The notes beneath the pieces are model-generated. The model saw only the letters and a program-made list of their open reading frames with translations, did not search any database and was not told the DNA's origin. From the NCBI GenBank assembly GCA_903847905.1, contig CAINEZ010000045.1, forward strand, positions 1-36,098: DNA of 36,098 nt, given 5' to 3'. This DNA comes from an uncultured Bacteroidota bacterium. Lineage in GTDB: Bacteria > Bacteroidota > Bacteroidia > Bacteroidales > CG2-30-32-10. Positions 4,015-25,240 of this stretch are shown here, in pieces; the stretch's first letter is position 1, and each line of letters opens with the position of its first letter. The translations under genes and the position numbers were made by a program.

Positions 4015-4614
4015 TCAATTTAATTTAACCTGACTGCCGTCAGGCAGGTTTCCAATTTCTTCTATCGGGCTTCGCCTTTTATCCTTCAATTGTTTAAAAT
4101 GAGAAGGTGAGAGCCCTGTAACTTTTTTAAATTGATTAGATAAATGAGCAACACTGCTGTAATTCATTTTCCATGCAATTTCTGTAATATTTAATTCATC
4201 ATAAATAATCAATTCTTTTATCCTTTCAATTTTGTGAGAAATGATGAATTGCTCAATAGTAGTTCCTTGTACTTCTGAAAATAAATTTGCCAGGTAAGTA
4301 TAATCGTGATTTAATTTTTTACTTAAAAAATCGGAAAAGTTTATTTTTATTATTTCGTCATTTGTATGGTGAACCATTTCAATAATTGTATTTTTTATTT
4401 TTTCAATCAATACAGCTCTCTTGTCGTCCATTAATTCAAGTCCTGAGTTGAGTAAAGCAATTTTTACCTGCTCTCGCTGTTCCGCAGAAATGTTTTCCAT
4501 TATCTCCACTTCACCTAAATCTACAACAATAAAATGCAGTCCAAGTTTTTTTAACTCTTCTTTCACCGCCATTTTACAGCGGTTACTTACCATGTATTTA
4601 ATGTATAATTTCAA
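4015..4614 (-). CDS. AraC-type regulator with HMA-like N-terminal domain, paralogue 1
   Basis: 199 residues from TTG at 4614. Residues 1-65 (KLYIKYMVSNRCKMAVKEEL ... VVDLGEVEI ... LLNSGLELMDD) match the pattern of a heavy-metal-associated ferredoxin-like fold, but the usual MxCxxC reads MVSNRC, with the first Cys replaced by Ser. Residues about 95-185 are a double helix-turn-helix of the AraC type (YLANLFSEVQGTTIEQFI; ITEIAWKMNYSSVAHLSNQFKKVTGLSPSHF). TTG is preferred over the ATG seven codons later because KLYIKY is conserved with the paralogue through synonymous changes. The C-terminal LPDGSQ is encoded by a dispersed GC palindrome. It heads the operon with the hybrid kinase and receiver, behind promoter copy C. 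The ligand is unknown. Confidence 0.85.
   Translation of the reverse strand: MKLYIKYMVSNRCKMAVKEELKKLGLHFIVVDLGEVEIMENISAEQREQVKIALLNSGLELMDDKRAVLIEKIKNTIIEMVHHTNDEIIKINFSDFLSKKLNHDYTYLANLFSEVQGTTIEQFIISHKIERIKELIIYDELNITEIAWKMNYSSVAHLSNQFKKVTGLSPSHFKQLKDKRRSPIEEIGNLPDGSQVKLN
4029..4048. repeat. GC-rich dispersed palindrome overlapping a gene end
   Basis: CCTGACTGCCGTCAGGCAGG is an imperfect palindrome related to those at 6089-6109, 10397-10417 and 29611-29630. Here it lies within the last codons of the AraC-type gene and encodes LPDGSQ, which the paralogue lacks. Confidence 0.6.
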
Positions 4615-4642
4615 ATAAATAATTTGTTTAAACAAATGATTA

Positions 4643-4710
4643 CAAAGTTGCGCAGCTTTTTATTGAAAAGTGTTATACAATTAAAGAGAAAAATTGTATA
4701 ATTCACACAT
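4643..4710 (-). promoter_or_regulatory. 68-nt promoter-like element, copy C
   Basis: On the minus strand it runs from ATGTGTGAATTATACAAT to CAACTTTG. The half-site-like units, on the plus strand, are ATTGTATAATTCA (4693-4705) and GTTATACAATTAA (4672-4684), 21 bp apart. The distance from the inner unit to the TTTG box equals that in copies A and B. The box ends 29 nt before the TTG start of AraC-type gene 1, so it probably drives the regulator-kinase-receiver operon. Confidence 0.7.
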
Positions 4711-4804
4711 TGTGCCAATGTGGCATCTGTAATAATATTTTATATGTGAAATATTTTTCTTTTTTGATTAAGCAATCAACCTGGTTTATGAAGGAAAAGC
4801 AGAG

Positions 4805-4981
4805 TTATAAAACTTCTTTTATTTCTTCAAAATGAGTATGATAAAAATTGTCTATAACCCATGATTTAAACTTACATAGTTCTTCACGATGCAAGTAACT
4901 AATTGACTTAATCAGTTCTTTCTTGAACAACTCATTATTAAAACTTACTTTTTGAAGAATTACTTTTTCATATTCAAACAT
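4805..4981 (-). CDS. Small conserved-looking protein, 58 residues
   Basis: ATG at 4981 to TAA at 4805. The product begins MFEYEKVILQKVSFNNELF and ends HFEEIKEVL. It is soluble, charged and helical, with one Cys and one Trp and no signal peptide or membrane segment. Composition and codon use look like a true gene rather than a chance frame. It resembles short Bacteroidota hypothetical proteins starting MFxYEK that I recall, but I cannot name a function. Promoter copy B lies 264 nt upstream, with a hairpin element (5023-5214) in between. It sits between the two AraC-type genes, in the same direction. Confidence 0.6.
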   Translation of the reverse strand: MFEYEKVILQKVSFNNELFKKELIKSISYLHREELCKFKSWVIDNFYHTHFEEIKEVL

Positions 4982-5022: not shown

Positions 5023-5214
5023 TTAGATATTACCAGTTGTGCTATTAACATATAAAAGATTGATTGTCAGACTGATTAATGTCAGCCTGAGTTCATCGAA
5101 GGCTAATAGAAGTCATATTTCGATATGGCTTCGACAGGCTCAGCCTGATATTGCTCAATATGACACTTGATTATTAATCAGTTACTTTTTCAATAGCACA
5201 AGGCGTTAGATATT
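5023..5214. mobile_element. Candidate MITE-like hairpin element with 9-bp target duplication
   Basis: TTAGATATT occurs at 5023-5031 and again at 5206-5214. The 174 bp between them has terminal inverted repeats TTGTGCTATT (5037-5046) and AATAGCACAA (5192-5201), inner inverted ACTGATTAAT (5071-5080) and ATTAATCAGT (5173-5182), and inner arms related to the CTTCGA...CTCAGCCTGA repeat family (5081-5101 and 5129-5148). There is no coding sequence. This fits a non-autonomous transposon. The flank is AT-rich and a third TTAGATATT occurs at 5912-5920, so chance is not excluded. It also fills most of the 4982-5304 gap. Confidence 0.5.
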
Positions 5215-5244
5215 TTTTAAATTGTATGTAAATATATTACAGTG

Positions 5245-5312
5245 CAAAGGAGAGCCCTTTAATTCATGGAAGCATTACACAAAAAAAGAAAATTGTTACA
5301 TCATTCACACAT
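5245..5312 (-). promoter_or_regulatory. 68-nt promoter-like element, copy B
   Basis: On the minus strand it runs from ATGTGTGAATGATGTAAC to CTCCTTTG. GTTACATCATTCACACA (5295-5311) matches copy A exactly over 17 nt (1053-1069). The inner unit at 5274-5286 (ATTACACAAAAAA) is weaker but has the same 21-bp phase. The element overlaps the last codon of AraC-type gene 2. Its nearest downstream gene is the 58-residue protein starting at 4981. Confidence 0.65.
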
Positions 5313-5883
5313 CTGTGCCGATAAGCAGATTATCAAGTGTGTCGCGTTTTTTGTGTTTAAGCTGCTTGTAGAAGGTAGGTGTTAATCCTGTAACTTTCTT
5401 AAATTGTTTGGATAAATGCGATACGCTGCTGTAATTAAGCTTGTAGGATATTTGGGTAAGGTTTAGCTCATCATATAAAAGTAATTCTTTTACCCGTTCT
5501 ATTTTGTGAGCGATAATAAAATGTTCAATGGTGATGCCTGTTACCTCCGAAAATAGGTTGGCGAGGTATGTGTAGTCGTAATGGAGCTTCCCGCTTAGGT
5601 AATCGGAAAAATTTATTTTGGGAAATTCGTCTGCATAATGTACCATCTCAATAATTACATTTTTTATTTTTTCAATCAGAATGGCTTTTTTGTCATCCAT
5701 CAACTCAAGCCCTGATTTCAATAAAGCTATCTTCAATTGGTCACGCTGCTCAGCAGTAATATTCTCTTTAACCTCTACTTCACCTAAATCCACCATGATG
5801 TAATGCAGCCCGAGTTTATCCAGCTCTGACTTCACCATCATTTTGCAGCGAATAGAAACCATATATTTGATGTAGAGTTTCAA
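5305..5883 (-). CDS. AraC-type regulator with HMA-like N-terminal domain, paralogue 2
   Basis: 192 residues from TTG at 5883. It is strongly similar along its whole length to the regulator at 4015-4614: the same KLYIKYMVS start, the VDLGEVEV and LLKSGLELMDDKKA segments, and the same AraC-type helix-turn-helix (YLANLFSEVTGITIEHFI; LTQISYKLNYSSVSHLSKQFKKVTGLTPTFY). The metal-type MxCxxC is again MVSIRC, so the first Cys is missing in both copies. They probably arose by tandem duplication before the intervening small gene was separated or inserted. The stop codon lies inside promoter copy B. The effector is unknown; a degenerate metal sensor or a protein-interaction domain are both possible. Confidence 0.85.
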   Translation of the reverse strand: MKLYIKYMVSIRCKMMVKSELDKLGLHYIMVDLGEVEVKENITAEQRDQLKIALLKSGLELMDDKKAILIEKIKNVIIEMVHYADEFPKINFSDYLSGKLHYDYTYLANLFSEVTGITIEHFIIAHKIERVKELLLYDELNLTQISYKLNYSSVSHLSKQFKKVTGLTPTFYKQLKHKKRDTLDNLLIGTDV

Positions 5884-10349: not shown

Positions 10350-10530
10350 CAGTGTCACTCAGAGCCAGACACTGTGTTGGCTTGTGAATTGGCGTCCCTG
10401 ACTTGCCGGCAGGCAGGTGTGTCGAAGATTGACTATGTATTGGTCGGGCTTCGACATATCCCGATCCTTCGATGAGGCTTCGATAAACTCAGCCTGACAT
10501 TATTCAGGATGTCGGGACAGCTCTACCTGA
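10350..10530. repeat. Cluster of dispersed repeats between pyk and cbpA
   Basis: The 10136-10597 gap has no convincing gene. It contains a hairpin CAGTGTC (10350-10356) / GACACTG (10368-10374), the GC palindrome at 10397-10417, a TCGGG...CCCGA inverted pair around 10443-10463, and a copy of CTTCGATAAACTCAGCCTGAC (10478-10498). The pyruvate kinase stop lies downstream on the minus strand, so this region may also hold its terminator, but no hairpin with a U-tail was found. Confidence 0.5.
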
Positions 10531-25181: not shown

Positions 25182-25240
25182 TGTCTTCGATAAACTCAGA
25201 CTGACTTTAGGGTAGTGTCAGTCTGAGTTTATCGAAGACA
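25182..25240. repeat. Perfect 24-bp inverted repeat of the CTTCGATAAACTCAG family
   Basis: The arm at 25182-25205 (TGTCTTCGATAAACTCAGAC plus four bases) is the exact reverse complement of 25217-25240, with an 11-nt loop. Related single arms occur at 5081-5101, 5129-5148 and 10478-10498. No target duplication is seen at its edges. The terminator, this hairpin, a possible -7 box and another hairpin occupy the 25073-25505 gap. Confidence 0.75.

Follow-up and report, generated by a model that had tools for sequence, protein, structure and literature searches.

Insertion sequences of the IS982 family have AC ends, identical repeats of 11-32 bp and target duplications of 2-10 bp (PMC7335449). A MITE derived from this family has been published, MITECca01 of Cardinium cOegib (PMC9769881), which is about 240 bp long and whose likely parent, ISCca4, is intact in the same genome (PMC9769881). 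The family described here resembles MITECca01 in its Bacteroidota host, its non-coding sequence of a few hundred bp, its IS982-type repeats, its many copies and its restriction to one lineage (PMC9769881), but ranges from 118 to 305 bp, has no assembled parent and carries a dispersed 21-bp repeat inside. IS982-derived MITEs as such are thus already published, and what is new here is this MITE family and its interior.

The segment lies in a window of 36,098 nucleotides, the whole stretch of DNA that we analysed, which is contig 45 of a 4.56-Mb draft genome in 704 contigs. We confirmed the observation of a flanked hairpin element: its inverted ends, ACCAGTTGTGCTATT...AATAGCACAAGGCGT, delimit 5032-5206, with inverted arms TTGTGCTATT/AATAGCACAA at 5037-5046 and 5192-5201 and nested arms ACTGATTAAT/ATTAATCAGT at 5071-5080 and 5173-5182, the arms lying where a preliminary description had placed them. 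That description gave a non-coding segment of 174 bp with a 9-bp duplication. The non-coding character held, with no open reading frame of at least 50 residues listed within the element, whereas the 22 complete copies, compared along with their target duplications, set the limits at A...T, 5032-5206, or 175 bp, with no strand assigned. Likewise, the 9-mer TTAGATATT does occur at 5023-5031 and 5206-5214, but the best reading is an 8-bp direct repeat, TAGATATT, at 5024-5031 and 5207-5214, to which the 9-mer adds the T at 5023; the ninth base belongs to the element, whose terminal T it is. With mismatches, the terminal inverted repeat reaches 15-17 bp, ACCAGTTGTGCTATT(AA) / ACGCCTTGTGCTATT(GA). 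As a DNA strand, the element folded far better than its shuffled versions (z = -4.5).

When the segment was used as a query against its own genome, 58 matches were found, some covering the whole element and others interior parts only. By searching for the ends and then pairing opposed ends, we obtained 22 complete copies, together with partial copies, several of them at contig ends, giving a family of about 30 copies. The B end, ACGCCTTGTGCTATTGA in its minus-strand reading (5190-5206), is exact at 8 listed places of this genome. Prokaryotic MITEs are short, as a rule below about 300 bp, and lack a transposase gene; the complete copies here range from 118 to 305 bp, the window's element being 175 bp long, and none of the 22 interrupts an open reading frame of at least 80 codons. 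Alignment showed about 50 bp conserved at each end, with 15-bp and 21-bp units present in differing numbers in the interior. The nearest copy, located on contig 135, shares 95% identity and is flanked by another repeat.

The target duplication varies from copy to copy, as is characteristic of a MITE. Exact repeats of 7-10 bp, counted within one base of the element ends, flank 14 of the 22 complete copies; the remaining 8 lack a duplication of at least 7 bp, which counts against the MITE reading. Since the flanks of the copies are 88% A+T, we compared left flanks with the right flanks of other copies as a control, and these mismatched pairs gave a 7-10 bp repeat in 9 of 462 cases (2%). Duplication length differs by one base among the copies, as with other IS982 elements, and IS982 itself has an 8-bp duplication, as has the window's element.

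A pattern search for the ends, covering 393 genomes of the order, returned ACCCGTTGTGCTATTAA at three places, each of them a contig end in a single genome, G129. One of these follows directly on the 111-residue C-terminus of a transposase, at the end of a contig piece, and this C-terminus matches NF033520 IS982 (E = 3e-24); the N-terminal part of the transposase lies on another contig and is preceded by ACCTGTTGTGCTATTAA. Both outer flanks of the G129 element have AGATACA(A) in common, a duplication of 7-8 bp, and plasmid-borne relatives of its transposase mostly carry an IS982-family annotation. The left end of the MITE and the inverted repeats of the G129 element, ACCYGTTGTGCTATTAA, share AC termini and 16-17 of 17 bases; the A end of the window's element, ACCAGTTGTGCTATTAA (5032-5048, plus strand), agrees at 16 of 17 with both G129 ends. 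Against the right repeat, the window's copy matches at 16 of 17 positions and copies C233 and C476 at all 17. AC ends are also shared with IS1187 (ACCYGTTGGCGGAATTAA), which has a 7-bp duplication, and with the right end of ISRa1 (ACTCGTTGTGCATTTTAA). From the G129 match, the AC ends and a duplication of 8 bp, inside the 2-10 bp range of the family (PMC7335449), we therefore assign IS982-type ends to the window's element. Insertion sequences of the IS982 family are about 1 kb long and encode a transposase, whereas the window's element encodes nothing, and the G129 element shares with it only the outer 17-19 bp. As the likeness stops there, the G129 element points to the source family of the MITE and not to its exact parent.

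The search for a full transposon with the same ends, a check proposed in the preliminary description, led to an IS982-family insertion sequence in a relative. In the own genome no IS982 transposase with these ends has been assembled, the best matches being an IS5-type gene and unrelated remnants, which counts against the IS982 reading. For an IS982-derived element, a parental insertion sequence in the same genome is usual but not required. As this is a draft of 704 contigs, the missing gene is not proof of absence, and the gap may reflect either loss or incomplete assembly. The candidates inspected as sources were rejected: the neighbourhood of the IS5-type transposase at C250 lacks these ends, no such end adjoins an IS982 remnant on C621 of the own genome, and single end matches in four genomes of the same order (G018, G230, G361 and G323) have no second end.

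Beyond the own genome, no copy of the MITE was found in 60 relatives or in plasmids or phages. The segment is accordingly not conserved at the same place in those relatives, an outcome that would have spoken against insertion; no empty orthologous site, which would have spoken for it, was found either, none of the relatives compared being close enough to align the locus. Viral contigs gave one chance match and no relative of the transposase. When 84,980 genomes were scanned for exact occurrences of ACGCCTTGTGCTATTGAAA, four loci were returned, three of which lie in coding-like sequence and look like matches by chance. The fourth, in Chitinophaga hostae (L097:7011-7068), is a palindrome of 58 bp with arms identical to the B end of the MITE (ACGCCTTGTGCTATTG); allowing 0-1 mismatch per arm, it occurs once in that genome, and it has no clear target duplication. 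We did not retain a resemblance of the ends to integron attC sites (GCGTTA/TAAC), since the copies do not form an array but are scattered and carry target duplications.

The interior of the element contains, at 5081-5101 on the plus strand, a copy with one mismatch of a 21-bp repeat, GTCAGSCTGAGTTTATCGAAG, that is dispersed through the genome. With up to 3 mismatches allowed, a pattern search of the genome gave 97 matches, compared with 0 for the reversed-pattern control. The repeat is present in 20 of the 22 complete MITE copies, and many of its copies are located outside the MITE. It often occurs as inverted pairs or together with tandem units of 15 bp; it is seen in the window at 10478-10498 (minus strand) and, as an inverted pair, at 25185-25237, besides about 95 places in the genome. 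No cognate transposase for the 21-mer was identified, and a literature search for the motif found nothing. Tentatively, and with a good deal more doubt than confidence, we suggest that this separately dispersed, palindrome-forming repeat was captured by IS982-type ends or invaded them repeatedly, such that the MITE would spread a REP-like hairpin of variable unit number through intergenic DNA, with some copies serving as long structured leaders.

Read on the minus strand, the insertion separates an upstream module (5219-5311) from a 58-residue open reading frame (4805-4981). The latter belongs to a family of unknown function that is widespread in the order (homologues in 54 of 295 genomes, own included) and follows the pattern ML-Y-K-VLQKVSF...LF; the window's member has no Pfam match. 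The module, termed promoter copy B, reads TGTGTGAATGATGTAA...TTGTGTAATGCTT...TTTGCAC followed by a weak TACAAT box, and is 77% identical, over 97 bases of DNA, to a module that genome G005 has upstream of a different gene; its weak sigma-type match is no commoner than in shuffled sequences. A perfect TGTGTGAATGATGTAA core occurs at 5296-5311 and again at 1054-1069. In the form TGTGTGAATGATGTAA...TTGTGTAATGCTTTCC...TTTGCAC, the module is seen on the minus strand at 5219-5311, 1003-1069 and, weakly, 4673-4719, and also at L057, L059, L069 and L070. Similar modules in relatives precede CsbD-like, cold-shock-like and other genes, and the conserved upstream module has the look of a signal shared by a regulon. 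The locus is flanked by two similar HTH proteins of AraC type, at 4015-4635 and 5305-5883 (both minus strand), apparently a local duplication.

The leader lengths given in the preliminary description were reproduced: from CAAAGG at 5245 to the ATG at 4981 there are 264 nt, or 81 once the 183 bp gained by insertion are subtracted, and at copy A there are 61 nt from 1003 to the start codon near 942 (MKKTF...). Since the homologues of the 58-residue gene examined in relatives lack the upstream module, the role of copy B as promoter of this gene is an assumption, and altered expression of the gene through a lengthened leader is a plausible conjecture.

The same position invites a different explanation, namely that the hairpin does not move and is kept to regulate the 58-residue gene, as a leader element, an attenuator or a bidirectional terminator. 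It stands between a conserved upstream module and the reading frame, and its minus-strand RNA is predicted to be strongly structured (-52.2 kcal/mol, z = -5.0 against shuffles). However, many unrelated genes have this element next to them, with target duplications of its own, no promoter or terminator above chance was found inside it, an Rfam search matched no family, and homologues in relatives have neither the module nor such a hairpin in the 120 bases before them. We consider a purely regulatory origin very improbable.

Duplications of 8-9 bp fit several transposase families, for example those of IS1, IS256, IS66, ISL3 and ISAs1 type, so that length alone would be compatible with a MITE mobilized by one of them; the end letters and the 16-17 of 17 bases shared with an insertion sequence of the IS982 family from the same order leave very little probability for such a mover. 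The abundance of the 21-bp repeat and the four Y1_Tnp genes of the genome could instead suggest a REP-type palindromic repeat carried by a Y1 (RAYT/IS200-like) transposase, its TIR-like ends being incidental. Y1 transposases are not known to make a target duplication, whereas the copies have them, and it is their ends rather than the interior that are conserved. Nor does the 21-mer occur in the loci of the four Y1 genes; the short Y1 (IS200/RAYT-like) genes at C135:19202, C183:11922 and C222:3969 (L188, L189 and L191) have, by eye, small palindromes of their own on both sides, unlike the 21-mer. The target duplications contradict a Y1 origin of the element as a whole, which is extremely unlikely, although it could apply to the interior repeat alone.

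These comparisons support the preliminary suggestion of a MITE-like insertion, with many copies in the own genome that share their ends and differ in their target duplications, and with a same-ended IS982-family element in a relative. The segment is very probably a MITE whose terminal repeats are recognised by an IS982-family DDE transposase and which was moved in trans with an 8-bp duplication. In the proposed mechanism, such a transposase, since lost from this genome or missing from its assembly, would have inserted the element into an AT-rich intergenic target, duplicating TAGATATT, and the element might then be transcribed as 183 nt of additional hairpin leader ahead of the 58-residue gene.

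As mobile DNA the element is ordinary and well supported. It adds a further IS982-derived MITE family in Bacteroidota, in a larger genome and with its parent not assembled, and it ties a repeat dispersed in high copy number to a known transposition system. It also shows that a non-coding hairpin found between a small gene and a promoter-like module may prove to be an insertion and not a regulator.
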